64,000 bases of DNA from assembly GCF_048128805.1 (NCBI RefSeq), contig NC_136016.1, positions 19,266,676 through 19,330,675 of the forward strand, read 5' to 3'. The stretch is from Centroberyx gerrardi (taxonomy: Eukaryota; Chordata; Actinopteri; Beryciformes; Berycidae). Position numbers and translations under genes: made by a program. This document shows positions 4,833 through 42,989 of the stretch, in pieces; position 1 is the first letter of the stretch; every line of letters starts with the position of its first letter. The notes beneath the pieces were generated by a model. It was not told where the DNA came from. It saw only the letters and a program-made list of their open reading frames with translations, and did no database searches.

Positions 4833-7788
4833 TTAGTATCCTATCTAGACGACACATTGTTGTTCACAGTATTAAATATCTAGTTCCTCGTGTCCACTCC
4901 AAAAGACTCATTCAGAAACTGGGCCACTTTACCACCTTTAGAACCAAAATATCACAGCCACATTTCAGACATAACATCCAGATACAAAACTGATCACTGA
5001 ACCTATTCACTGTGTGTGAAAAACTGTCCTTGTCCTCCTAAAAGCAAATAATAGCCGCCGATATGAAGCAGCATCACATAATTCCACCTTCAGAGCCAGA
5101 AAAAGCTCCGGTCGTCCTCGCTAATAGAGACGAGCTTCATCTCTCTCCTGTAAAAATAGAAACCGGTTCATCAGTGAAAACTCTCTGGCAGACACTTCGT
5201 CAAGATGTTTGCAGTCACCAGACGGAAAGCTTTCACTGAAACGATAAGCAGCACGAAGCGCAGAACGCTGATATCAAACTGATCCCCGCTCATATGACAG
5301 GAGATTCTCCAGGTGCAGCTGATTCTCATTTTGCAGTTTGTCAGTGTCACAGTTTCAACCTGGACTTGATTCTCCCGTCTTTTTCCATCATACTGATCGA
5401 TTTAGACCAAAATCTCATCAATTGCTTCACTATAGAGCTACTTCAGCCTTGCTTGGCTCTCTAATACAGTCCAAAAAGGCCAATGGACACTCAAAAAATC
5501 AACCACAAAAGCACCTAAAGCATGTCTTTTTCAGCATATTGATTGCTCGTGTTGGTTGTTGGTTAAAAGATGTAAATGAAAAGTATCTAAAGTGAAAGTC
5601 TTGCGTTTCTCATACAGTTTTGATGCTTCCTTGGCCGTTGTTTCAGCACTTTCTTCTTTACTGTTGTTTACTCAACTGTGGCTGCCTGTCTACGTGCACC
5701 GCTGTGTAAAGTAGTGCAAAATAAATAGTGAAAGTTGTCACTTAAAAATATACATGTCTCATATATTTGGGTGCTTTTAGGGTTGATTTTTGGAGTGTCC
5801 GTTGGCCTTACAGGACTGTATTTTGTATGGTATGATAGTTAGAACGAGCTAAAAAGGCGAAAAAGTAATTTTTCATTCCAGTGTCACAAAGTTTCAATTC
5901 ATCACCCCCTGTGGGCTGAGAAGTGACCGTACCCGACACTAAAATTTCATCTGGGCAAGAATCTACAGGGTCTCAGTTAGCGGGGATGGGACGCTCTTCT
6001 CTACTGCAGCCCCACTTTGTGATTTAGGCTGATATGGTGGGTGTAATTTCACAAAAAAAAATTGACATGTGCAGCTTTAACACGACCAAGGTTAGAGGTT
6101 CAATTCCTATGTTGGCCGATGCTTAAGATGCTGCAAAAAGCTTTGGGTAAAAGCATAGCAGCATCCGCCAAATGTTATATGTTGTGTATAGCCTATGTTT
6201 CAGTTAGGAACTGTGATAGACTTGGTTGTGCAGCGGATTTCAAGCACAGACTTAGAAATAAACAAGTAGTCTCCTGTATATTATGCATTTCTCTGTTCTG
6301 CTTCATCTGCTTTAGATGACTCAAGTAAACATTTCCAGGCTCGCGTCGCATAAATTTACATAATGTGGCGCTGGGAAAAAAAGGACTGCGCAAACAATAC
6401 GAGTCACCTGCGTGTCTGTGAACACATCAGAGACACTGTGGGGGCGGAATAAGACAGAAGTGATGGAGGAGGGCGAACACCTACTCCCGGTGAAGGCGAT
6501 CCAGCGGGCGTATCGGGTGGCCTCGCGCCGCCAGTGTGACATCACCAGCAGGCCGCAGGTGACGGTGAGCGAGATGATGCCCAGGACGATGAAGAAGAGC
6601 GTGGTGACCCACTCCGGGGGCAGCTGAGGGGGGATGCAGGTCCGGTCCCGTCCGTGGATGGTCTGACACTGCCGGACCAGACCCACCGTCAGAGAGCCTG
6701 AGAGAGAGAGAGAGAGAGAGAAGAGTCAACTTTCTCTGTGTTTATAGAAAGAGAAAAGCTCCAGGTTTTATGGGGGAAAAATGTAAAAACTGTAGAACTC
6801 GCAGCTCAGTTTGTTAGTAAATGTCTTCAGCTGTGTGAGAAAATATAAATGTTAAAAATGTATTGTCTGCTGCAGATTTACCCTGCTTTCCTTTTCCCTT
6901 TCTATCCAATTACTCCTTCAAAAGAGTTCTTCTCTTTCCAATATTGATTGTTGTTATTCGTTAGATTACTGTTTATATATTATTAATTATTAGTCAATGT
7001 TGTAGTCTTACCCCATTTGAAATATTGTACTGCTTTGTCAGAGAGAGAGAGAAAGAGAAAGAAAGAGAGAGAGAGATTGATTAAGTTCTATCCATGTTGC
7101 TGCAATTCCTACTGGTGGCTGATAGAGGTTGATAAAGATCAAAGATGCCCCTTTAAATTAAAAAGTGGGTTAAACTATGACCTCCATTATGAGATCATCA
7201 TAAGACAAACCACCACCGACATGAATAAAAATCAGCAAAATATAGATATAGTTTTGGATGTTTTTACAGTGGGAAAACACACATTCTATTCACTTAAAAC
7301 GATTTAGATCTTTTGATAGTTATAGTTATCGTCCTAGATGTGAATGGGCCTGAAGGTTTATCCTCCTCTACATCGCCGACACACAGGAGGCAGAGACAGA
7401 CGGAGTTAAGCATCACATCACATTCCTACAGACACAAACAAACAAACCAAACCCTTCCAACAAGCCAACACAAGCTCCAACTCTTTGCGGCTCTTTGTGG
7501 TTTTCACAACACCAGGTTACTGCACAACGAAACATGACGTCATTTATGAACGTGCGTCGGGAGGGAAACAGGCTGTTGGGCTGCAGGCCAATGACAGCCG
7601 ACATCACCCCCCCCCCCCACCCCCCCACCCACCCACCCACAGCATCACAGGGCGAGAGAAACAAGAGACTAACAGTAAGGTGGAAGTCAACAAATGAAAA
7701 GTTCAGCGGCCCCAACATTAGGTGGTGAGTCACTAACCCCAAAGCCTGGTGGGTCCAATTATGTCAGCTAGGTCAGACCTCTGCACGC

Positions 7789-7825
<37 letters not shown>

Positions 7826-10800
7826 CAAGCAGGGGAACCCCACCCTCCAAGGCCCCGCAGAGAATGCATCTGCTCAGCACTCCGCTCCACTCCTCATCCA
7901 GTCCGACAACAGAGGACTCCTCACATATAAATGAGAGAAATGCAAAATTAAATCCTCCCACGCCTCTTTTGTTGTTTCTGTTTTTCATGTCTTTGCCTCT
8001 TTTGTTGCTCTTTCACAGCATTATCTGGAGCCAGCAGTTGGTGCCAACCACAGAGAGAGGGAACTTTATATTTACGTTTCTGGGATTTATTCAGGGGGCA
8101 ACTTACAGAGTGCAACTGTAGAATAAGATGGGCAACATTACAAGCAACCAAAATTGCAGGAAATGAGTGCAGGAAAATAGAAGGAATCAGAAATATGAAA
8201 TTGACATAAAACCTCTTGCTGCTTTTAAATAAACACCTGGGACTTTCAGTGATTCAAAAAAGAGCTCTTACTTTATAATTAACACCGGAGTATTTTTTAA
8301 AATCATAATTGTGGGCTTTTCATGTGACAGTAGAGATATAAACGAAGATGAGTTGTTGACACAGAGCATGGATAAAACACTTGCATAAAGTATATTCAGT
8401 TAGTTATGAGGACATCACAAGTCGCAATCTTTACAGCAGTGTGTTAAGACGTGCTAAAATAATTAAAGCTGCACTTGGCGGCCCCAAATGGCAACGAGAG
8501 GTAACTGTTTGAATTTTAAAGACTTCAAAACCCAGAAATGATGTAACACGTCGTTGGTGACGCAGCGCTCACTTGTTGCCGTTTTGGATTTCACTCTTAA
8601 ATCTCAATTCTTTATTCCCTGTGTGCTGAGAGAAGATTTCCCTCCGGTGCCCAATATACCAGAATTGAATTTGGGCAATCAGGGCAAATCTGCGAAGTCT
8701 CAATTAGCAGATATGGGACGCTCCGGATGGGTGAATTTTTATAGAGATCTTGCCTGCCTGGTGCAGCTTTAGGTATAAAGCCTCGTGTTAAAGAGAGCGT
8801 GGTTAGATAAGACTATCGTGTAACTGGAAGTTCACAGGTTCGATCCTCTGCAACAGCCAGAGCGTCTCTCCACGTCAGCGTCCTCGATGTCCTTGATCCC
8901 TCTGCTGAAATGGATCTGTGTGTCAGAGGAGCAGGCAAGGAAACGAATCCCCCGGGTGGAAAGACCAAAACATCAGACTCAAGCCGAAGTGCTGTCGCTT
9001 AACTGAAGTTTTACTTGTACACCTGCTGGTATAAAAATCTTGAGTAAAAGTAAACAGTTGCTAATCTAAAATGTACTCAGACATGTAATAGACATTGTTA
9101 AATATGACTTTTTCCCATACAATGCAAAAAACAACAAAAGGACAGAGTTCAACATGTTTTTATTGACTATGTCGAGAGTAAAAATAGACTTTTGAAATTC
9201 ATGTCATTATTTGACCTATGATGTAAAAAAACAAATAAAAAACGCCATTATTCCTCTAAGTTACAACACCGATGTTTCCTTTGCTATTAGCTGTCCAGCT
9301 AGCAAAACAACAACCAGGCTAACACAAATCAATAATACTGTAGCTGGTTTGACGGCTTTTTGGCTAATATTAACTAAGCTACTATTATGGATAAATTTAA
9401 GTATTTAATGTTACAGTTAGTTAATGTTTCCTCCACATGCTCACATGGGTTTGACGCAGGTGAAATTTACCAGTGGAGAGTTTCTGATGTGCAGAAGAGG
9501 ATTAGGGTCACATGTGGAAAATGTATTTGAGTTCTGAGATTAATAGTTTAATAGATGAATAGAATTCCGAGTTTAAAGTCAGAATTAGTCAGTTTATTCT
9601 CAGAATTCTGACTTTATTCTCAGAATCTCAGAATTCAGTTATAGAGTTCTGACAGAATTCTGACTTTATTCTCAGAACTAAAAATGTTTTTTTCACTTGG
9701 CCCTAATCCTCTTCCGTACTGACGCAATGCTTATGGAGAGCCTACAAATTTTTTTACTCTGTAATGGATGTGATTTAAAAAGTAGGCAAGTACAATACTT
9801 AATACTTTTTGTATTAATTAATAAAATTGTAAAACACAAGTACAAGCTCACAAAAAAGTTACTTGAGAGAAAATGTAATTGGTTACCCCCAGCCTTGTGT
9901 ATTCCTAATTACACAGTGTGTAATACGACAACTGAGTACTCTAAAAAATTCTTAAAAACATTCCTCATTCCTCTCCCATATCAAGTTCCCCTCTCATCCA
10001 TCCTGCTGCGTGCCATAAAAATAAAAACAACCTTTTAAATAATTAATGGTCCCATAGTATTAGCCTCAGTTCCTGTACATGGATACAGTGCTGAGTGGGG
10101 AGACGTACTGATACCAGGAAAGGCTGAGGATGTGGGAACCGCATCCTTCTGGAGGCTGACCGCTGTTCCCCCTATACACAGGATATCCTGTTCCCTCTCA
10201 CACATCCTTTCATACAGGGAGGGAGGGGGGGGGGGAAATCTGAATAGTGCCGTTTCATATTTTTTCCCAGACATACTGCATACTGGAGCCCAAGTCAGAG
10301 AGCTTGATTAACAACCAGTGGTGAATCCAGATGTGCTGTTGCTCCGTCTCAGTAAGGAAAATGGCATTTGTTTGTATAATAAGAATATGAATAAGGAAAA
10401 AATATAAAAATAAGAATAAACACTTATTAATCAGCACTTTTCAAAACTTAGTTAGACAATAAAAACGCCAGAACATGAATTAGAAACATAAGAATTAAAC
10501 AGGAAAAAACCCTTGCAAATAAAAACACAGAAATGATGTAAAAGACTATCTGTAAACTGCATTTTAGCAGAGAAAACTTCCAGAGATATACAGCCAATTC
10601 TGCATTCTATCAATTTGAATAACACAGCACAAAATAACGGCTCTTTTATTGGTTTTGAAAGCATTGAGACCGCAACACAAAACTGGGGATACATAAAATC
10701 CCACCACAGAAGGTTTCGGAAGGTTTCTGCAGGGCGTTGTTGTGGGATATATTAAATGGTATCGAATCAATCCAATTGTCCTTTAATAGGATTGGGCATT

Positions 10801-11285
10801 TGGGAAATAGCTGATGCACTTATCCAGAACAACTTGCAATGAGTGTTACAGTGGAATAAGCTTTAATTCCTAGATCCGCAGCATTTCAAGCAATAGTAAG
10901 AAGTCCAAGGGTCAGAGCCGTAATGCCCTGACAATATTCCTGTGACCCCACACCAATTATCCTGTGAGAGAGAAGGACAAGGAAACAAGAGAAATAAGAG
11001 ATAAGGAGAGAAAAACTAGTTTCTTTTTTTTATTAAGATGAGACCGTATTAGACGGAGCGGATGAGAAATGCTTTGTCATGCAGCACAGTGTTGGTGTGC
11101 ATGGTCGTGTGTGTGTGTGTGTGTGTGTGTCGTGTAGGTACAGTATACTTTACAAGCGGCCAGCCAAAATCCGAGGTTGGTAAACACTTCCCGAAACCCA
11201 GACAGTCTCCCACTGCTTCCAAATTCACAACAGAGTACTTACTGTACTTAACTAGGCGGCACACCGGTGTTCATACACAAATAAC

Positions 11286-11330
<45 letters not shown>

Positions 11331-14300
11331 CTCATAAACATGCACTCTAACATTGTGGTACATGACAAAGCATTGGGAATTACAGAACAGCAGCAAAGGA
11401 AAACAAGTTTGCCTTTAAGTGATTCAACAATGTCACAACAGCAGCTAATGAGCGAAAGGTGTCGCCGTCTCCATCTGAACGACCACATGATGACGAGTCA
11501 ACAACAAGTGCACCGCGGGACTGACCTTGTTGTACATTATTAACATCGTGAGGCATTTCAACATTCTTACTGTTTTGTTGGTGTGTAAAAAAAATCTAGT
11601 GAGAAGTAGTATCAGAGCCAGTGTAAGTGCGGGAGGAGGAAACAGTGATTTCCACAGGACGATTCTCCATGTTTTTGACACAAAACGCTCCCAGCCGAGG
11701 GATAATTTCCGTCATAATTGAGCTTGGAGAGCTTCAATTCTCTAAGCGGAAAGTATTTCTGTCCCAGGAGGCCTAATTAAAAGTCACTACACACATCTCC
11801 ATTCACAAACAACACCCACCCCCCACACCCCATCATCAGGTAATTACTATTAGGCTAATTAAACGGGAACAAAAGGCTTTTAGTCCCGTCCGATTTCACA
11901 CCACTGCTCGCTCCTCTGTGGAACAGGAGGGCAGAAGCCTCACATGGAATTAATTGTGTTGAACTTAAGCCCATTTTGAAGGATAAAGAGTGAGATGTGT
12001 TGGCAAAAAAATGTTTTAATTGATTTGGTGGGTTTAGTTATGCAACGTAAACCTGTTTGCCATGCACTGAAGTAGCAGCTGCATTGAGTAGGCTATATTT
12101 GCATCTGATTCAAGCCTGTGATAAACATGCAACACAACTTTGCATATAGTGGTGCGAAGGCCGTCTGTTTGTTGCTGCATCGGTTTTAGTTTTAGTCAAT
12201 GTTTAGCCTTTGGACTTTGGATCTGGATATTACAGTAGTGCGATACCTAGGGAATCTGACAATCTACAAACAAACATAACATATGGTATTTGGTGGGCAC
12301 TTCTACTCTAGGGCTGCACAATTAATACCATATAATCATATATGCAATTTTTGCTCCCACAGCTAATAATCGCAGGCTGTAATATTGTAATAACAGCAAT
12401 AATTAATCACTCAAAACATAAATATTCCATTCAAAACATCTGCTGTGAGTGAAAATAATCATGATGTTAATGTAGATGCCATAAATGCAGAAAAATAATT
12501 ATGTTTGTTTCAAATCATGCGGACTAATAATCATAATTAACAACTGTGATCACAGTATCTAGCAATTATCATTTCAGACACAATTATTCGGCCCTAGTGC
12601 ACATCAGATTTATTCAAAGCAACTTGTAGTAACATGACAACATACTGGTTCTTAAAGGGATCTTTGGTTAGAGCAGTGGGTAATACTGTATTCACTGAAA
12701 AATAAAAAATTCTGGTAAATCAGAATAAAGAGTCCAGCATGGTTTTTAAAAAGGTACCATAAAGGTTCAACAATGTACATTTGAACATGGTCCTATAGTG
12801 AACCTATAAGCTGTAAGCCCTTCTAAAAGGGTTCCTTATAACACCAACAAGGGTTCTGCTATAGTACAGGCCTAAAGAACCATCTTCCTGGTATTATATA
12901 ACGATTTTAGTTAAGTGTGTATACAGGACCAAAAGTTGTCCCTTGAGGGTATTTCATTGAGTGTTTTGGGGACAAGCATTGGAGTAAATTCTTAGCTTGT
13001 TTAACATTGTTTATGGACACCTATTTTGTATTTTATCATTTTCTTAATGTAATTTTGAAGCATACATATGGAAAATGTAACTTTGAAATTGTGCTTTACT
13101 CTAGTTAAGTGGCTACAGCTATTTGGATGTGATGGGATAGTTAAGTGACATCACTTGTTTAGCCTACCGGAGATAAAGTTGGCAGCTTTTATACTAACTC
13201 CAGTGATGTAACACATTCATTTGCATATTAGATATTTGTAAACTTTTCTCATCATGTCATGTGCCTGGTTTGTGTCCCCACCTATCCCATCATGCTAAGC
13301 GCACACAGTTATTGGCTTCTCATAGACAGTGAATGGAGGTGAACTGTTGGTGAAATCGTGTCACCGTCACCCTGTAAGGTCTATCAGTAGCCATCTCCTG
13401 CCTTTACTGCAGCTCTCCACCATAACTCAGCCATGGGAATTTGATAAAGAATACTAATATGGCTGTCAGGCTCTCTGTCCGTCTCTCTGGATCAGAGGCA
13501 CGGCAGAATGACAGTGAACAGATATCCATGACCACGGCTACACACACACACACACACACATCCACAAACACATACACACACTCGTTTCACACATCTGTTG
13601 GAGCATTTTGTCAACTGTCCCTGTCATGGCTGGTACTTGATGCTGAAGGATGGGGGAGAAGAACCTGAAGGGACGAGGAATTTGAACATGTTGGTGCAAA
13701 ATGCCAAAGAGCAGAAGGTGGCTGGTGAAACCTGGGGCGATGGGACAGGGGTTCAGACTACCCAGGGCCCCAAACTGAGGGAGGGGGCCCTAAAGTGTCC
13801 CGACTAAAACGCCTTTTGTGGACCTATATATTTATAAATATTTCATACTTTAATTTCACACTGCTCTGGCATTTGGTGTAAATCTGCAAAACTGCAAACA
13901 AATTACACTTTCTCAAAAATACGGTACTGCAACTGTCGTGGAATAGCTGGAATAATGGTGGTGTGGGGAGGAGAGGAGAGTGGAGGGGGGCCCCAGAGTC
14001 CCCCTCCCATGCATATAGGACCCACAATTCCTAGCTACGCCCCTGGGTGCAACCTGAGTTTCTTCAGTTTGCTTTTAGCTCAGTACCCACTGCCTGAGTG
14101 TGGAGACAGAGGACTCAGCTGGACAGCAGAGGAGAAAGAGGACAAACACTTGGTGGCGAGTCGCACAACAGCTTTGTCAAATCAACATTTTTTAAAGGTG
14201 GTGTTGCCAACAATCTTGCTGAAGAGGACATACAGCTGGGCACTGATTCAATATCATCATTTATGGTCTTTCAGTACAATCATATCATGATGAAATATGA

Positions 14301-15022
14301 TACTGAGTTATTGTAATATGACATTCTGCTGTTTAAATTAATGAAACACAGCAAATAGTAATTAAAATCTCTCACAAAATTAGATTTGAAGCAAAGTTAG
14401 GGATTATTATTTTGAAAATTTGTGGAGTTTGTGCATACTTTATATTAGGCTACATGCAGTTAAATACAATGACCATGAATTTGATTATTTAACATGTGAT
14501 TTTGCATATCTGTGTTTTCTGCTAACACCTCAAAACTCCAATTTTGGTGATTTTCATGATATTCGTTGACCTCTTGGGCGTATTAAACCCTTTCAAAACC
14601 TAATGGATAATGTCAAAAACTCATTATCATCAAGCTAAAAAATAAGGCCTTTTCTCTTCTTCCTAAAAAGTTGACATTGTGGAGATTGGAGGTTTTCACT
14701 AGACAGACACGATACTTTCGCAGATATCGTTATACATCTATATCGCAATAATTTCTTACGATTATCGTGATATGAATTGTTTCCATACTGCCCAGCCCTA
14801 AACAATGGTTGACCCTATAGGACAGTGCACATAAACCATTAACAACCCATCATGTTTGTGATAGTTCACCAGTTAAATGGCAGTGCTGGAGTGGAGAAAG
14901 TGCCAGTATAACTTACCAGCTGATTCCCCGGTGTTGATCCAGTCCGGGTTGGCGATGCTGGCGATGGCGAAGATGTCTGCAGCTAGGAAGAGGCATCCTG
15001 ATATCACGGTGAGTTTATCCAT
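4587..15022 (-). CDS. mosmo: Modulator of Smoothened (MOSMO/C16orf52 homologue), complete, 3 coding exons
   Basis: Coding exons on the minus strand are 15022-14917, 6697-6485 and 4771-4587, giving 167 aa, the length I recall for the human protein. Junctions fall in Gly36 and Met107. The product starts MDKLTVISGCLF and ends GLLFAGKVCLPG. Four hydrophobic segments are visible, at about residues 6-27, 66-88, 101-122 and 139-160, giving a claudin-like four-pass membrane protein. A Cys pair (46 and 56) lies in the first loop. From established knowledge of the family, MOSMO works with MEGF8 and MGRN1 to remove Smoothened from the surface and ciliary membrane, lowering Hedgehog signalling. Intron 1 is 8.2 kb and full of repeats; intron 2 is 1.7 kb. 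Both 3' splice sites carry CT microsatellites. The last exon runs into a poly(C) stretch (mRNA sense) 18 nt after the stop codon. Confidence 0.96.
4775..4829 (-). repeat. CT microsatellite forming the polypyrimidine tract of mosmo exon 3
   Basis: (GA)n on the plus strand reads (CT)n in the transcript for about 55 nt and ends directly in CCAG at the exon 3 acceptor (exon starts at 4771). The microsatellite therefore is the polypyrimidine tract of this splice site. Confidence 0.9.
5460..6078. repeat. Inverted repeat and adjoining MITE remnant in mosmo intron 2
   Basis: About 55 bp at 5467-5519 returns as an imperfect reverse complement at 5763-5818; both arms contain ACAGTCC, AATGGACACTC or a close variant, and AAAATCAACC. 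To the right, sequence up to GTGCAGCTTTAA near 6078 resembles the right half of the element at 8462-8772, including the shared GGGACGCTC. I read this as two degraded DNA transposons. Confidence 0.6.
6075..6178 (+). mobile_element. tRNA-derived SINE fragment
   Basis: A box-B-like GGTTAGAGGTTCAATTCC is followed by a tail TTTGGGTAAAAGCATAGCAG and CCGCCAAATG. That tail resembles the GGATAAAAGCGTCTGCTAAATG ending shared by many fish SINEs and L2-like LINEs. No acceptor stem can be paired, so it is not a tRNA gene. Confidence 0.6.
6699..6722 (-). repeat. CT microsatellite at the mosmo exon 2 acceptor
   Basis: (GA)11 on the plus strand, (CT)11 in the transcript, ends in the CAG acceptor of mosmo exon 2 (exon starts at 6697). 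Together with 4775-4829, both mosmo introns end in a CT microsatellite. Confidence 0.85.
8462..8772. mobile_element. MITE with TTAAAGCTGCAC termini
   Basis: The left end reads TTAAAGCTGCACTTGG and the right end is the complement of CCTAAAGCTGCACCAG, giving a terminal inverted repeat of about 14 bp around 311 bp. Related sequence occurs at 5850-6078 and 17645-18060. No coding capacity. Confidence 0.65.
8795..8960 (+). mobile_element. tRNA-derived SINE
   Basis: The piece contains GTGGTTAGATAAGACTATCG-like and GGTTCGATCC (box B) segments, followed by the body GTCTCTCCACGTCAGCGTCC and ATGGATCTGTGTGTCAGAG. A cloverleaf cannot be completed, so this is a SINE with a tRNA-like head and not a tRNA gene. 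Confidence 0.6.
12309..12597. mobile_element. hAT-like MITE (CTAGGGCTGCACAATTA termini)
   Basis: It begins CTAGGGCTGCACAATTA and ends with ACAATTATTCGGCCCTAG, an inverted repeat of about 17 bp with internal AT-rich CATAATTA-type sequence. The target duplication is not clear. It lies in mosmo intron 1. Confidence 0.7.
13732..14045. mobile_element. DNA transposon copy A (ends GCTACGCCCCTG)
   Basis: The left end CTGGGGCGATGG and the right end CTAGCTACGCCCCTG are approximate inverted repeats. The body shares long stretches with 58859-59405, for example CCCCAAACTGAGGGAGGGG and CTGGAATAATGGTGGTGTGG. It is a non-autonomous copy in mosmo intron 1. Confidence 0.7.
14234..14800. mobile_element. hAT-like MITE (GCTGGGC..GCCCAGCCCTA termini)
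   Basis: The ends AGCTGGGCACTGATTCAATA and ACTGCCCAGCCCTA match the TAGGGCTGGGCGATAT family, of which a better preserved copy is at 22685-23034. The interior is AT-rich with many degraded CGATATC-like motifs. Confidence 0.6.
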
Positions 15023-15796
15023 CGCCAAGAAGACGCGTTTGGTGATGGACAGCAGGGAGGTCAGTGTGTGTATATATGCCTCTATCTCACCCCTCCAAAC
15101 GGGAGACAGGACATTTAAAAGTCCCTTACGTTCAATGGCGAGGATCCATAGCCATGCCCAGATCATGCCCTATCATCGTGGCCATCACTGCGGCGATGGG
15201 GACGATCCTCGGAGCCTCAATGTTGCCTGTGCATCCCGTTTAATCCCGTACAGTCCAATACGCAGACTTATTCCTTTAAAGTTCCTGGTGATGTTCCTCC
15301 TACAGCCGACCATGGCCCGACCTGCTGGCACTTCTCCAGCCCAGGAGAGGATCGCTGACCGGGCTCATGGATATTTAACAGCTCCCTCCAGATGACCGTG
15401 CATCCCGCTGATGTTTGCAAATGGACTGGAGGAAAAACAAACCGGGTGTGTTGCTGTAATCGCTAGTTAATTCCCAGCAGCGGAGACGGATTCATGCATG
15501 CAGCCTACTTATTTCCTGACTCTGCATGAAGCCCCCCTCTCTCCATATGGAAGCTTTTTCCTTCTTTTAGGCAAGCACAAACCAAAAACGCCGCCCATAC
15601 TCAGCCACGGCAAAGTGCTTTCTGTGAAGCTTAAAATACCTCCACTTCTAGTTGAATTTCGTTATTTTACCCCTCTTTAAAAAGCTCTTCAAAAGACGTA
15701 CGTTTCCTCTCCAGCCGCTCCTGGTCGTCTCCCTCTCTCGGCAATGGGAACTGAAAAGCGAGCTCGCGTCTCTCCGTGTGTGTAGTGGACACCAGC

Positions 15797-16388: not shown

Positions 16389-19300
16389 TTAGATCTCATC
16401 CACGAAGGGCGTTTTTACAAGGTTTCCGCTGGATGCCATGGTCTTCTTGCCGGACACAAACTTCTTTGCAGCCTGGAAATATACAGGAGGAAAGATAAGG
16501 ACATCATCATTAACTACATAAACCAGAATTTCCCCAAGGGGATTAATAAAGTGCTATCTTATCTTATCTTATCTTATCTTAGATCGATTCCATGTCAAGT
16601 CCTAAGTCTCAATGTAGAACAGCAAGTCAAGTCAGAACAAATCAAGAGTCCAGTATCAATTTAATATCTTAAAGAAAACTAAATATCTAGGACTTTTCAA
16701 TGCAATATGGTTTTAATAGGATAAAAACTTGGTGAGAGCATCATGAGTTTGATTTCTATAATCAGTTTCAACTTCAATAAATTCAATCATTCCATACAAA
16801 TTCAGAAAACAATTTAAATTCAGTCGTCTGCTGGAACAAATCTCATCACTTTCAATCCAAGTCATTTACACAAACACAAGATCTTTTGTCGAGACTTTAG
16901 AAACCTTTTCAAGTCATCAAAGTACAAGTCAAAGTCAAGTCCCAAGTCAAGTCTCAAGTCTTCTCTTCATGCATCAAGTCAAGTCTCAAGCGATTAAAAT
17001 TGTGACTCGAGTCCAAGTCATGTGACTCAAGTCCCCACCTCTGACAGAAATAACAGTGTCATAGTAGAAGAATTTACATCCCTCCTCTTTGTTTTGACGG
17101 CCCTAACAAGCAACTACAGACAGAATAAAACCACTTACGTTGGCGACATCGGTTAAGGAGACGTTGTCGATGCTTTTAGTGATCGACTCGGGAGACTGGT
17201 AGGCTCCATCGGCCAGAGCCTGAGAGCCCATGGCCTCCAGCAAACCCTCCGAGGTTTCCAGAGACATCAGGTACTGGGCCTTCAGCTGGGCCCTGCAGGG
17301 GGGCGGGGGAGACAATTTGGTCAGAAGCCAATAATATTTAACTCTGAGTGTGAAGTATGAGGGGGAAAGGGCAGTACTGTTTACTTTGTCCTCATCTGTT
17401 TTCTACCTTGTGTTGTTATTTAGATTCTTCCAGTTCTGTCTTTGCTTTTTGTTGTTTATTTGTTTATTTTGAGGTGAGATGTTTTAATAATTACATTTTT
17501 TTTTATCTCACCTGCACAAATGTTTGGTTCTCTTCTGTGTTTTTTTTTTTTAATTACTGTATTTTTTAGCACTGTTTTTAAATCGCTTTGCTGTGACTGT
17601 GGGGGGTTAGGAGTGTAACAATTACCCGATTCAATTTGAGGATTTGGTTTAAAGCTACGCTAGGCAACATCGCACACTATCGGCTCCAAATGACAGCAAG
17701 AGGCAAATCTGACATGACCGTAATAAAGTGATTAACTGCTCAGCGAGACATGCTTTAGTTTCTCTCTTTCACATTAGTTTACATCCTACTGCCTTTTTCT
17801 GACTATTGTTCACTCCCCTCTTGCTGTCATATTATGTCTGTGCTTGTGAAGGAGTTCCCACTGCTTACAGAACAAGCCATCTGTCTCACAGTGGAAATCG
17901 AACAGTCGTGTTGGAATATAAAATGGACGGAAATAAAAAGGCTTCTAGCTTATCGAGACGTTCTTAAGCCTGGTTCATGCTTTCTGTTTGGTTAGGCGCG
18001 CGGAAACTGCAACATGTACCTTGGCATTCATGCTTCTCACAACAAGACTTTAAAGCTATTCCCTGTGTATTTCAATGGGCATGGCAAGGCACTAACACTG
18101 CCAAGGTTAGAGGTTCTATTCCCCATTGCGATTCATATTAAACTACTATAAGGCACCTTGAATAAACACATCCAACAAATGGCCAATATCAAATCAAAAC
18201 TAAATTAAACTGTATCTCTAGATGATTTGGCTGTATATTATAGGCCATGCACACAGATATAACAACAAGTAACAGGGAGATATGTACTCTTAGTGTTAGT
18301 GTGTATTAGTGTGTGTGTGTGTTTGTCTTACTTGGCCCTGGTGAGGTCAGCAGCTGTGACTCCACCGTCAGCAACAGCCTTCACCTGGGCGACCGCAGCC
18401 TTGATCACCTGGAGAGACAGGAGAGTGTGGAGGTCAGGCAAGATTGTTTCACTTTTTACAGTTTCATATTTGAAGGTATAATCCAGCTATTTTGCTGAAT
18501 AGCTTGTGCTGATTAATAGACTCTTATCATGACTGAGCTAGAGATGTGGAAGGAATCTGTGGTGGGATACTCACATCACCAGCGGCAGCAGTCTGGGAGA
18601 TGGTGTAGACCCCAAACAGACCAGAGTCAGAGTAGCTTGCACTGAAAGCAGAGGCCTGTACAGAAAAACACACAAGAAAGGGCCAAATGTTGTTGTTTTT
18701 TTAACAGGTGGTGTTGCACTTAATGTTTAACACATCTTTCAATTCTAACACAATAAGCAAGGCAAAAGTAAACAGATTGTCCCCCACAAATGATGCAGTC
18801 CTCATAACGGCCAGTGAGAAACAAATACGTCACCTTGTTTTGACCTGTAATTGTAGTGCCCCCCTTGGGTCAATCAGTATAATTTTGAAAGAGTGTAGTC
18901 GTGAGATGCAAGATTTCCCCAGGTTTCGTATAACCCAATCAGTGGTGGCTGAGATATTGTGTGCGACACACAGACAAATAAATGAAAGAACAAGTTGTGC
19001 CCCCTCAGGCTAATCAGTGTAATTGTGAAGCAGTTGCAGTGCAGTTTTTGTTGGATGTGTATGAATTTTTTTAATTTTACTGGTTATGAAAACCAACTGC
19101 CAGCCACTCACATCGAAGGGGTCGCTGGTTGCCATGGCAACACCCTGGACCAGTTTGCTGGTGGAGTTGGAGCCCCTCTTGATGTGCGGACCGGCCCCCA
19201 GGACGTGCTGCAGCACGCTGAAGGCCAGAGCCTCGCCGGTGCCTGCTGCCGCCGCCTGGCTCACCACCGCCGAGTGGACCAGACCGCTGGAGCTGGGCAG

Positions 19301-22300
19301 ACGAACCTCACCTGGAGAGGGGAAGAGAGGAGAAGAGGATGAGGATGAGGATGAGAGGAGAGGAGAAAAGACAAAAGAAAGGGGATGATGATGAGAGGAG
19401 AGGAGAAAAGAGAAGAGGATGAGGAGAGAGGAGAGGAGGGAAGAGAAGAGAAGACAAGACAAGAGAAGAGAAGAGAAGAGAAGAGAAGAGAAGAGAAGAC
19501 AAGAGAAGAGGATGAGGGCAGGATGAGGAGAGGAGAGGAGAGGAGAGTTTGCCATGTTTAGACTTCTTGGTAGCGGGGGTAAGTGGTCAGCTTTCTCTTC
19601 GACTGTTAATTGTTGTATACCCCCATTCAATTTAGTCAGTTAATTTCCTAAATAGAATTCATAAAAATGCCAAGAAATTAGTTAAAATAGAAATCAAACT
19701 TTATGAACCCAATATTTTGAAGCTTGTTGATACCCTTTGATTCATTAAAACCTATTCTGGTCCCAAAAGTTGGTGTGGGGTCGACACTCAACAGTGATTT
19801 TAGATTTCCAGCTGTCTGGAAACGGATCTCACCTCCACGATACTGGGCTTTGGCCCCTGTGGTTCCCGCCCCACTGCGGATGTTGAGGAACTGCTCGCCC
19901 ACTTGCTTCAGCACAGTGTGGTCGACACCTGGGGGAAAGAGGAACACATGCATGATCCATTGGTTATTTAGAAGACACTGGGTATGCTATTTTAATGTTA
20001 ATTCCCAGTTAAGCTGAGTAATGACATCATGTGTCATTTCAGGTTAATATGGTAATAGTATGGTTATTATAAGAATATTATTATAATGATGTAATGACCC
20101 TTACCAAGTCCAACAAGAGCCATTCGCGCACTTGTGAAATTATTCTGGACAAAGTGGTGCAGCTGGAGACAAACATTAGAAAGAGGGTTTTAAAGGTTAT
20201 GATAACACCATCAGTCACAATGTGATAAATACTGAACCATGAATGAATTTATCCTTCAGGAAAGCTCAGGAAAAAAATGAGGCATCTTACATGGTCAGAC
20301 TTGACGTTGCCAACCATGTGGTCTGGACAGTAGAGGGAGTTACAAAGGGCGTTCTTGTAGGCAGCTGCATGGAGACCTTCAATCACACCTAGAGGAGAGA
20401 GATAAGGACAGGATTAGACCTCAGAATGGGAAGTGAGAGGTGATGGGGGGGGGGATCAAAAGGTAGATATTGAAAAGAGTGTGTGTTATAAGGGAAATGA
20501 AGGCTGACCAATCTGGGCGCTCTGTGCAGCCTGGGCCTTGTCCGTCTTCACCCTGGGTGTGAGGTCCGACACCTCCCACGGCCGAAACTCTGGGGCTGTG
20601 GTCACATTGATCAAATACTCCATCACCGTGTCACTGTAGACAGACAACCAATAAACAAGAGGGAGAGAAACGTGTCAGCCATTTGAACTGCTGTGGGACT
20701 GGGCCAGTATCCTGTGCAGCTCAGGATTGCTCAAAATAAACTCAAAAACAAATCTGCTGGTGGAGGATCTTAAAATCTGTTTGTGCTTTGCAGTTTTTAG
20801 GATCAAAAATCAGAATCGAAAATCAAAAATTACCAAAGATATTTGTATGTACACATCAGTGTAAGAAATTATTGTTGATTGATCTGATTTTTATAGGCAA
20901 TTAGGTTCTTTTTGGGGGAAACCTTTATTAAACTATAAAAATAATACATTTCCACTGCATATTGGAAAATAAACACTAAATTTTTACCACTAAGATTTGT
21001 TTTAACTTCTTTCCCACAACTGGAAAATCAGGGCAAGCCTAACAGAAGAGCATGATGCTGTTTTCCCCACTCTCTGCCCCCAACCGGTCCATCCTCCACC
21101 CCCAATTGTTTAGTTTTTTATGATATTGGTTGTTTTATTTTTTGACGACACAGTGGTTTGCATGGGGTCGGCTTTTTCTTCTCCAGCTGGCTGCAGGGTG
21201 CCAACATTTTCTACTGTTTCAGACTGCGTACTGGGTTGTTTTCTGACCAAAAACCGATCAATTCTTCTCATCCAGAATGCACTGGAATTAATCTTCCTGT
21301 GAATACACTTGTAGTATGAACACAGCACTAGTATTCATCCAAAGACTCACATGTCGTCTCTCAAGCAGTCGACGGAGTAGATCATGTTCTCTCTGGATGA
21401 GGTCACGCTGCAGAGAGGCACAGACATTCAGACATCCAGATAAGAACGCCATTCATGGTGTGTACATACATTCAGAGGTTTTGTTATGACAAATTTTTTC
21501 TATTCCAGTTCAAATTTCTTTGTAACTTGCTGACCTCAGGCTGCCTCCCACTGCCTCCACACCGCGACATATCTTGAAAGCTGAGGCTCCTTTGGTTGTC
21601 TGGAAAAGTAAAAACACTTGTCAACAGCCGGCTGAGACAGAACGTAATATTCATGCTCCTAAAATACATTATTCAAGTTCTCTATGTTCTGCTTTGTAAT
21701 AACAAAAACAAGGGCTGGAAGGATAAAGACTTCATGAATACTAAATCGTCAGCAGCTGTTTGAAGTCCTAACAAAGCGCACAATACACCACAACATCAAA
21801 GTATAGACATTTAAAACATAAGCATTCAGGCATCCTGGGGGCTCAGTTGGTTAAAGTGCGTATATCCTTGGTTCAAATTCGGCCCAGGACCTTTGTCACG
21901 TCATCCCCTCCACTCTGTCTCTCTCCCACTCTTTCCTGTCTATCTCCACTGACAACTATCAAACAAAGGCAAAAATGCCCAAAATCTAATCTTTACAACA
22001 TCAGCATTTAACATTTAGTAGATATGTTGATTTATCTTCAGCAGTGGTTTGGACAGCGGTCCATATGTTCTACACATTAGCCCTATATGTGCAGGTTTTT
22101 CAGCGGAAAAGTAGATAGGTGACAATTTGGTCTAATTTTCTGAGAAGGCATAGGCATTCACAGATGAAGACGGCCTGTCCATCATAATGTTTGTAGGTTA
22201 GTAATCAATAAAGATTTGGTCTGAATCAGAGGTACAGGTGTGCAGTTGCTTTCAGGTCTGGAATTCTTGATAATTTTCCCAAAGCTGGTGAATAAAGACA

Positions 22301-24737
22301 GAGGATGCTCCGCGTTACGGTTTCATACCAGGCTGGAGGCCAGTCGGAGGATGTGGGTGACCCCCTGGTTGTCGGGCGTCTCATAACGACAGCCAGCCTT
22401 GATAAACACTCCGATCTTGGAGGCCGGGGAATAGTTCTCCAGCGAGGCAATCACCAGCCCACTGGGCAGTTTGGTCACCTGGACAGGAGGCAACATATAG
22501 AGATATGTCTTGCATGAAATTTAGATAGAAATTCAACTAAAGCATAAGAGACAAAACTTCAAATCCCATTCTACACAAGCCTCAATGTATACTTCCAAGT
22601 TCAGCTAAGAACAAAGGCACATAATAGTCTTATAAAAAAAGACAAACAGCCTCAGCATTAAGCATGAGCAACACAAACTAGAGTTAGGGCTGGGCGATAT
22701 GGTTGAAATCAGTATCACAATAGTATTTTTTTCTATATCAATATATATCATGATATGATTCACATATGCAAAATTACATGAAAAAAAATCAAATTTATGT
22801 TCATTCCACTGAACCAAATGGTAATGTTAGGTGTGATGTCAAACAAAACTGAAATTTTCAAACAATATTCCTTAAAATGTTTCATACCTCATTTTGTCAG
22901 TTTTTAAATTAAATCTGCTTGTTATCATCAGTTTAGACAGCAGAATTGTGCGTCACGATATCCCAAAATCACCATATCATCACAAAATCATTCCAAGACG
23001 ATAAATGACAATACTGAATTATCGCCCAGCCCTAATTGGAGTAACACAGTTAGAACTATTTTCTAATAGACAAACAAACTCATATCTTCACTCTCAGGCC
23101 CCCACCACACTGCCTGGACACCCAGCCCAGCCCTCCTCATTACTCCCCGACATACATGGACATCCTGGTAGGAGTGGGCAGCCCCCGGAGAGAGCTTGAG
23201 GCCAGCTAGGGGCTGGGCAAGGGACTGGTCTTTTCTGGCAGCCGCATAGAACCGTCTCTGTGGAGAAGAGAGACACGTCAACAACCACTGACCTGCACTT
23301 CCTGCGGCTGAAACTTAACGTGTTCGGCAGCCCCCGTGACCTCCACCTTACGGGCAGCCTGGGCTGCGTAAAGCCTCCTCTGAAAAACCAGAAAACATCA
23401 GAAGGAGGGACATTACAGCTAAGGTGTTGTCGGCCGACTGACCCAAGAGCAGTCTGCTGGCTAGAGAGGAAATCAGTGGCAAGAAAGAGTTTGATGTGAT
23501 GAGAATGAAGGTTAAAAACTAGACTGGATTGTGTTATTGTCATGACCTCTATCCACTTATATATGCTTCTCAAATTCACAGTATTCTGCTGCATCACCAC
23601 ACAGCCATCTTGGTAGGAAAACAACAGGTGATTATAATAAATTAACAGCTGATTATAATCAAATGACAACCACAGCCAATGAGCTGCTTAAATGGCAAGC
23701 AAAGCACCATATTGGTAGGAAATGCATGTGACATCATGGGGAGTACTATGAATATACACAATATTCTAATATACAATTATAGCTGTTCCAACAAAATGGC
23801 AAAAAGCTCGTGACCAGGATATATGTTTGACAGAGTTAAATAGCCAAGAGTTAACTGTCGTCACAGATATAGGCTGAAATCAGGTCAGAAATGATTAAGC
23901 AACTCTTCTTGAGATAACATAAGTCCGCTACATTGTGACAGCAGACAGTCACTGTATTAAATGTATGGCTACTGAGTTGTTGCTCTGATGGAAGCTAGCT
24001 TTATTTTGTTATCGTTGTAAAGCAGAGTATCCACTTTTGAGTCTGTGCATGGAGCAAATACCCAATGCTTATGTGTGACCTAATACATAAAACTGTTTAT
24101 GTAACTTACAACGTATTCCGACTGTCCACATGCTAGCTGTTTATGAACAGATATTCTGACAGTCAAAGCACCGGCTAACGTTACATTGGGGTTTCGAGGA
24201 AAAAACACACAACTACACAAACACCATAAGTTAACTTGTCTGGTCAGTTCTTTATTTTTATCCTTATTTGGATTTGAAACTGATCTGGTCGTTTGACACT
24301 GTCAATGACAGGCGACGCACAGCACAGTGAGCAGCTTAGCTAACTGACTGTGGAAGGATACTTACTAGCTTGGGCAGTAATGCTAGGTAGCCGTTAATTT
24401 AACTAAGCTAGATAGGCGCACGAGCTTCAAGATGCGGCTGGGGTTAATGTTAAATCAGCACGACACGAAAATGAAGCTATAGTTTTCTTTTCGTTTATCT
24501 ATTCGGTGTTGCGTTGCTTTCTGTGGACCTGGTTTTAAGGACAAAGTAGGTGGTGCTTGTTGGCTGATTGCTTCCTCGCTTGTCTTGACATCTGAACTCT
24601 TCTCATATTTTTTTTATAACGGCCGAGAATCCCAGAAAGAGAAACAAATCGGCTGTTGTTCATACAGCTATTCCGACACACGAATATGTAAAGTAAATCC
24701 TTACCGATAACTGACTTATTCCCCGAATCCCCTTCAT
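16389..24737 (-). CDS. uqcrc2: Cytochrome b-c1 complex subunit 2 (core protein 2), complete, 14 coding positions with an alternative exon 2
   Basis: Exons (minus): 24737-24705, exon 2 (23379-23293 or 23257-23156), 22478-22329, 21599-21535, 21407-21351, 20633-20509, 20388-20291, 20162-20105, 19928-19833, 19311-19112, 18655-18575, 18408-18332, 17292-17139, 16472-16389. All junctions keep frame with GT/AG sites. The product is 454 aa with exon 2a and 459 aa with exon 2b (human is 453, from memory). Diagnostic stretches are [36 protein letters not shown] and [15 protein letters not shown]. It is an M16 peptidase-fold protein without an intact HxxEH zinc motif, a matrix-side scaffold of complex III. 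The N-terminus [13 protein letters not shown] is basic and Glu/Asp-free, as for a mitochondrial presequence. The C-terminal Pro-Phe-Val-Asp-Glu-Ile matches the family end. The gene is head to head with snu13. Confidence 0.97.
16523..16581 (+). mobile_element. LINE/SINE 3' tail with TTATC repeats
   Basis: TTTCCCCAAGGGGATTAATA then AAGTGC and five (TATCT)-type units match the usual 3' end of a non-LTR retrotransposon family common in fish. It lies in uqcrc2 intron 13, or just upstream of exon 14, and abuts the element at 16595. Confidence 0.6.
16595..17045. mobile_element. CAAGTCAAGTC-rich transposon, copy 1 (right end intact)
   Basis: The sequence from about 16615 to 16930 is nearly identical to 60783-61080, with only a few differences by eye. 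It is flanked by repeats of AAGTCAAGTC and ends GACTCAAGTCCCCACCTCTG, which is the complement of the left end CAGAGGTGTGACC of copy 2. The left end of this copy is lost at the TTATC tail. Confidence 0.7.
17645..18170. repeat. Composite MITE/SINE remnant in uqcrc2 intron 12
   Basis: It starts TTTAAAGCTACGCTAGGC, like the element at 8462, and ends with a SINE-type box B GGTTAGAGGTTCTATTCCCC, as at 6075-6178. This suggests an old element that carries both parts. No coding sequence seen. Confidence 0.5.
19312..19548 (-). repeat. 237-nt polypyrimidine tract before uqcrc2 exon 10
   Basis: The plus strand is almost pure purine (units GAGAA, GAGAG, GATGAG), so the transcript carries a C/T tract of about 237 nt that ends in the CAG acceptor of exon 10 (exon starts at 19311). 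Parts are mirror-symmetric, the class of sequence that can form triplex DNA. Confidence 0.9.
21833..21990 (+). mobile_element. tRNA-derived SINE
   Basis: GGGGGCTCAGTTGGTTAAAG (box A-like) and GGTTCAAATTCGGCCCAGGA (box B-like) are followed by CCTTTGTCACGTCATCCCC, CTCTGTCTCTCTCCC and the tail AACAAAGGCAAAAATGCCC. This is the layout of a SINE family widespread in percomorph fish. It lies in uqcrc2 intron 3. Confidence 0.75.
22685..23034. mobile_element. hAT-like MITE with TAGGGCTGGGCGATAT termini
   Basis: It begins TAGGGCTGGGCGATATGG and ends TTATCGCCCAGCCCTA, a near-perfect inverted repeat. The flanks actagagt (22677-22684) and attggagt (23035-23042) form an 8-bp target duplication with two differences. 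It inserted in the intron between uqcrc2 exons 2 and 3. Confidence 0.8.
23156..23257 (-). CDS. uqcrc2: uqcrc2 alternative exon 2b
   Basis: This is a 102-nt open exon, phase 0 at both ends, encoding 34 residues that start [12 protein letters not shown] and end SYQDVH. The acceptor is TCTCTCTTCTCCACAG and the donor GTATGT. It resembles exon 2a at both ends: RR(F/L)YAA and an ARK block at the start, and Q(D/E)V(H/Q) at the end, so it looks like a diverged tandem copy. Spliced between exons 1 and 3 it gives a 459-aa protein. The donor of exon 2a lies only 35 nt upstream. Transcript support is needed to prove use, but lack of stops, matching phases and kept motifs argue against chance. Confidence 0.75.
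23293..23379 (-). CDS. uqcrc2: uqcrc2 exon 2a (canonical form)
   Basis: This is an 87-nt exon, phase 0 at both ends, with acceptor TTTTTCAG and donor GTCAGT, encoding 29 residues from [12 protein letters not shown] to FQPQEVQ. By length and by the step into VTKLPSG it matches the usual vertebrate exon 2 better than 2b. The human precursor is cleaved after Phe-Tyr in SRFY (from memory), so the mature protein here should begin just after RRLY. Confidence 0.85.

Positions 24738-38149: not shown

Positions 38150-42989
<4,840 letters not shown>

Follow-up and report, generated by a model that had tools for sequence, protein, structure and literature searches.

A putative pair of mutually exclusive second exons in a uqcrc2 gene of Centroberyx gerrardi, with one exon type in the ohnologous copy

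Introduction

In the respiratory chain, subunit isoforms are familiar from cytochrome oxidase, and in mammals the presequence of complex III core protein 2 is cleaved after a tyrosine residue. As for alternative exons in duplicated genes, mitf is a case in which teleost ohnologs keep different alternative exons. The uqcrc2 locus considered here resembles mitf in that an ancestral alternative exon pair would have been kept unequally after genome duplication; it differs in that uqcrc2 is a housekeeping respiratory gene, one copy of which keeps both exons and the other only one.

Among mitochondrial enzyme subunits, OGDH carries an adjacent exon pair, 4a/4b, found from fish to mammals, which according to the available text of PMC7969005 switches calcium sensitivity and uses a branch point distant from the 3' splice site together with a long pyrimidine tract. 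The uqcrc2 pair is similarly an adjacent exon pair in the gene of a mitochondrial enzyme subunit, but that branch-point arrangement sets OGDH apart from it, and what the uqcrc2 pair swaps is the cleavage region and the tail of the mature protein. Tandem exon pairs in human genes are rare and mostly ancient, and the mutually exclusive substitutions of tandem duplicated exons are enriched there at protein termini (PMC9741552, available text). The uqcrc2 exons are comparable as a mutually exclusive tandem arrangement, whereas their interiors, unlike those of the human duplicated exons, are not alike; UQCRC2 has 0 occurrences in the available main text of PMC9741552. Cytochrome oxidase subunit isoforms are treated in the available text of PMC12467167.

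Several published data sets touch upon the gene itself. In the brain of Betta splendens (W0 vs L0), uqcrc2b is among the differentially spliced genes, the event type being unnamed in the available text (PMC9150285). UQCRC2 is printed in a gene table from work on splicing in human macrophages (PMC5352146) and is one of the oxidative phosphorylation genes named in a study of splicing in chicken (PMC8678468), in both cases without event details in the text available. In rainbowfish, uqcrc2b was higher at raised temperature at the gene level (PMC4831457, available text). The literature search, within the texts available to it, found no description of an alternative uqcrc2 exon 2, or of complex III core proteins with such exon use, in fish. 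Both isoforms may already be present in automatically generated fish genome annotations.

Results

Structure of the uqcrc2 gene and its exon pair

The window, i.e., the whole analyzed stretch of 64,000 nucleotides of C. gerrardi DNA, contains on its minus strand a uqcrc2 gene encoding complex III core protein 2 (24737-16389). Exon 3 matches the solved core protein 2 chain 3cwb_B in sequence (E 1.4e-15), and the joined exons 1, 2a, and 3 match chain 9h8t_K (E 1.4e-23). Exons 1, 2a, and 3-13 form a continuous frame with 0 stops and exon 14 terminates with TAA, so that the gene looks intact. The features are listed in Table 1.

Table 1. Features of the window around the uqcrc2 exon pair
Feature	Coordinates	Strand	Remark
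Downstream neighbour, taken as mosmo	6321..15166	-	ORF 6686-6321, Pfam Atthog; ORF 15166-14873, MDKLT... exon
uqcrc2 exons 4-14 plus introns	16389..22328	-	
uqcrc2 exon 3	22329..22478	-	VTKLPSG..., common acceptor exon
uqcrc2 exon 2b	23156..23257	-	102 nt, 34 codons, type b (ohnolog-like exon 2)
Spacer intron	23258..23292	-	35 nt, GT...AG
uqcrc2 exon 2a	23293..23379	-	87 nt, 29 codons, type a (mammal-like exon 2)
uqcrc2 exon 1	24705..24737	-	presequence start, 11 residues
ORF with presumed rac-type GTPase C-terminus	38150..38464	-	synteny marker

An earlier sequence-only reading of this DNA had described two adjacent open exons of 87 and 102 nt in phase 0 and had proposed that either of them joins exon 1 to exon 3. 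Every coordinate proved correct to the base. Both exons are open and have the same phase (0) at both ends, and the frames bear out that 2a or 2b alone links exon 1 to exon 3. The lengths are 1325 nt for intron 1 and 677 nt for the intron following 2b. The GC content of third codon positions is 0.69 in 2a and 0.65 in 2b, and that of the flanking introns is 0.40 and 0.35.

The interval between exons 1 and 3 was scanned for AG-open-GT blocks of 20-50 codons having a K/R..Y/F-A/S motif at the start. Of the 8 matches, 3 corresponded to 2a and 5 to 2b, as variants with different 3' ends, and the same scan of the reverse strand of this interval gave 0 matches. Since only 2a and 2b were recovered and nothing on the reverse strand, the exon pair goes beyond chance.

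The second uqcrc2 copy and its neighbourhood

A search of the genome (779 Mb, 278 contigs) with exon 3 gave two matches, namely, the window gene on contig C20 and a copy on contig C7. A retrocopy of a spliced isoform was not found in the whole genome using the exon 3 query at E <= 0.001, which returned the two gene copies only. The search for relatives yielded 2 pattern stretches in viral contigs and 35 in genome contigs, with 0 relatives by tblastn.

The genes of a rac-type GTPase, uqcrc2, and mosmo are arranged identically on the two contigs, C20 and C7, as regards both order and relative orientation. The mosmo exon starting with MDKLT is identical in 35 of 36 residues between the two blocks. 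The name mosmo comes from the Pfam Atthog match of ORF 6686-6321, the MDKLT peptide of the window having no Pfam match, and we infer that the two ORFs belong to one mosmo gene. The synteny marker has a C-terminus that we take to be that of a rac-type GTPase. Its 43 residues gave 14 genome matches, the closest of which, besides the window's own, was the C7 copy. The two C-termini (C20:19304828-19304956 and C7:17536366-17536494) are 98% identical, a conservation far beyond that of uqcrc2. A second rac pair is present on C7 (5355259) and C20 (3073106).

Because the order rac-uqcrc2-mosmo is common to both contigs, the C7 and C20 copies were taken as ohnologs, presumably derived from the teleost genome duplication; they are designated uqcrc2a (C7) and uqcrc2b (C20).

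Two types of exon 2

Exon 2 of the C7 copy (C7:17573170-17573271) has 34 codons and encodes KRCYAAARRSEALTEPYGVRKAAPAAPLPAQDVQ. Its ungapped alignment with 2b contains 14 identical residues out of 34 (score 65, z 9.5), and none of 2000 shuffles was as good. The alignment of 2a with the same exon required gaps and scored 25 (z 4.7), again with 0 of 2000 shuffles as good; 2a also matches the ohnolog exon over the full length because both ends are common. At the DNA level, codon shuffles as good were 0 of 2000 for 2b and 53 of 2000 for 2a against the ohnolog exon.

Analysis of the interiors only gave a different picture for the two exons. The interior of 2b was matched against that of the ohnolog exon by just 1 of 2000 shuffles, whereas for 2a this number was 1366. 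Conversely, the interior of 2a resembles that of the mammal-type exon 2 of chain 9h8t_K (0 of 2000 shuffles as good), the two exons being aligned gap-free with 10 of 29 residues identical. When 2b was compared with the aligned solved core-2 chains, matches were seen towards the end of 2b only. Since the interior comparisons separate them, 2a groups by sequence with the mammal-type exon 2 and 2b with exon 2 of the ohnolog. The types are told apart by the interior, the length, and the higher score of 2b only.

Genome-wide search with 2b, up to E = 10, retrieved 2b itself and exon 2 of the ohnolog at E = 8.08 and nothing else; this E value alone is not significant, and the case for the match comes from the position of the exon in the ohnolog and from the shuffles. 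The same search with 2a found 2a itself only. As the only exon 2 type found in the ohnolog, type b is not a lone curiosity of the window gene.

The exon duplication assumed by the sequence-only reading is plausible rather than proved. Over their whole length, 2a and 2b are more alike than shuffles (0 of 2000 as good for protein, 1 of 2000 for DNA), but this likeness consists of the ends RR.YAA and Q.V only, and the interiors display no similarity (z -0.9, 1692 of 2000 shuffles as good).

A relic of 2a was not found in intron 1 of the ohnolog (score 15.0 vs a shuffled mean of 17.3), so that the loss of type a from this copy is presumed. In nine local comparisons, the strongest was that of 2b with ohnolog intron 2 (23 columns, 2 of 300 shuffles as good), followed by 2b with uqcrc2b intron 1 (22 of 300) and then with uqcrc2b intron 2 (30 of 300).

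Probable age of type b, splice sites, and possible selection

Fourfold sites of 2b and the ohnolog exon are identical in 4 of 9 cases, the exon comparison comprising 9 sites only, vs 72 of 148 in exons 3-13 of the gene pair; identical third positions amount to 15 of 34 and 0.525, respectively. In silent divergence, the exon comparison comes close to exons 3-13, which makes it probable that both copies already had type b when the ohnologs split. The protein identity of 2b and the ohnolog exon is below the 0.69 observed for exons 3-13, which indicates that the exon 2b segment is fast-evolving. The simplest reading is that the exon pair predates the ohnolog split, one copy having kept both exons and the other type b only. 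The sequence-only reading had proposed to date 2b within percomorphs; if the match to the ohnolog reflects homology, type b dates back at least to the ohnolog pair. The earlier interpretation was right in outline and probably understated the age.

Splice sites were scored leave-one-out with a small matrix derived from both uqcrc2 genes; the sample was small, and the sites of 2a and 2b were kept out of the training. The donor of 2a ranked 1st and that of 2b 8th among 17 donors, and the acceptor of 2b ranked 7th and that of 2a 15th among 16 acceptors. The acceptor of the ohnolog's own exon 2 ranked last in the same scoring; therefore, a low rank is no sign of disuse.

Neutral drift of 2b was simulated under the Jukes-Cantor model with 0.38 and 0.43 substitutions per site and branch (from third positions and fourfold sites, respectively), in 20,000 runs each. 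The runs started from 2b itself, any indel was counted as breaking, and indel rates were assumed. The open frame together with AG and GT was kept in 8-10% of runs without indels; the fraction was 0.8-1.4% when indels were set at 5% of substitutions and 0.08-0.2% when they were set at 10%. Under this model, the simulation favours selection keeping 2b, short of proof.

These data bear on an unlikely alternative, according to which 2b was once used and is now silent or very rare, with uqcrc2b giving the 2a form and uqcrc2a the b form. The fraction of zero-indel runs in which a neutral exon keeps its frame and splice dinucleotides leaves some room for it, but the 0.08-1.4% obtained with indels at 5-10% of substitutions speaks against it, as do the open frame, the 34 codons shared with the ohnolog exon, the kept cleavage motif, and the middle ranks of both 2b splice sites.

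Equally unlikely is an alternative concerning the origin only, namely, that type b originated in one of the ohnologs and reached the other by gene conversion, or that the 34-codon exons converged. It draws on the fact that the order of events is read from one genome and thus is not directly dated, and on the restriction of matches between 2b and the solved chains to the exon end. Recent gene conversion between the copies was rejected on the fourfold sites given above, and any conversion must be old, whereas convergence leaves the interior match of 2b and the ohnolog exon unexplained. This alternative is compatible with both exons being in use, and the alternatives to the preferred reading overlap.

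The spacer and predicted mutual exclusion of the exons

The spacer between 2a and 2b has the sequence GTCAGTGGTTGTTGACGTGTCTCTCTTCTCCACAG. Only one stretch of it, TTGAC, resembles a branch point by matching yTnAy, and the A of this match is at position 15. The spacer is far shorter than any of the other 13 uqcrc2 introns (120-1325 nt). Its retention results in an in-frame TGA.

In the available text of PMC7969005, approximately 50 nt is proposed as the steric minimum between a 5' splice site and a branch point, and this limit is used there to explain the mutual exclusion of the OGDH exons. As the whole uqcrc2 spacer comprises 35 nt, it lies below this limit wherever the branch point falls and should be too short to be spliced out. 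Joint inclusion of 2a and 2b is not expected, since the spacer is under the steric limit and its retention gives a stop. The exclusion may leak, because in mammalian cells OGDH reporters from fish, in contrast to endotherm reporters, additionally yielded products with both exons or with neither (PMC7969005, available text). The two exons are adjacent, have the same phase, and keep the frame, and their arrangement should preclude joint inclusion, as in mutually exclusive tandem exons.

That the exons form a switch between productive and unproductive transcripts (spacer retained or both exons skipped) rather than encode two proteins is very improbable: the TGA in the retained spacer and the double skip, which would keep the frame and remove the cleavage motif, agree with it, but one poison exon would be enough, and the finding of no exon 2 other than type b in the ohnolog is left unexplained.

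Predicted N-termini of the protein

Exons 2a and 2b start with R-R-(L/F)-Y-A-A and exon 2 of the ohnolog with K-R-C-Y-A-A. With cleavage after Tyr, the presequence would be the same, and the mature tail would comprise 25 residues for 2a or 30 residues for 2b and the ohnolog. The different mature N-termini suggested by the sequence-only reading were upheld, as both exons bear the cleavage motif and the predicted tails differ. Its further suggestion, a use of the two forms that depends on tissue, temperature, or hypoxia, is conjectural. The two core-2 genes may also differ at the mature N-terminus without alternative splicing, as uqcrc2a shows type b only.

The deposited chains 5xte_K, 6haw_B, and 6xvf_B begin only near the end of the exon 2 segment. 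Because several deposited chains start there, the N-terminal tail may be mobile; this is a hint only, as other deposits (1be3_B etc.) are longer. If the tail is mobile, tail contacts or modification are more likely to be altered than catalysis.

Discussion

Taken as a whole, the data point with a probability of about 0.75 to 2a and 2b being mutually exclusive exons of uqcrc2b, with the ohnolog uqcrc2a fixed for type b and the pair being older than the ohnolog split. The proposed mechanism is as follows. The U1 and U2 particles should not fit together on the 35-nt spacer, and 2a would not be joined to 2b; each transcript would hold either 2a or 2b between exons 1 and 3, while retention of the spacer would lead to a stop. 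Exon 1 and the R-x-Y-A cleavage motif are common to both forms, and import and cleavage would be alike. The switched part would be the beginning of the mature tail on the matrix side, 25 residues with 2a or 30 with 2b. Its function would most likely lie in tuning core-protein contacts or in modification of the tail rather than in catalysis. The exon pair would be older than the ohnolog split, which was most likely the teleost genome duplication, after which uqcrc2a may have lost type a and become a fixed type-b gene, with uqcrc2b still able to make both forms.

A broader version of this reading is tentative and has a lower probability. It assumes ancient core-2 tails a and b and a steric switch that existed before the duplication, with uqcrc2a fixed for b and uqcrc2b switching, so that a ratio depending on tissue or stress would tune core contacts or supercomplexes.

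The pair would extend the known class of mutually exclusive tandem exons to an unexpected gene, and the C7 ohnolog of uqcrc2 with its type-b exon 2 is new here. If the proposed exon use is real, splicing sets part of complex III diversity in fishes. The ohnolog pair would then provide a natural comparison, one locus being fixed for tail b and the other able to switch. Studies of fish uqcrc2b at the gene level, such as the temperature work known from the available text of PMC4831457, may mix two proteins.
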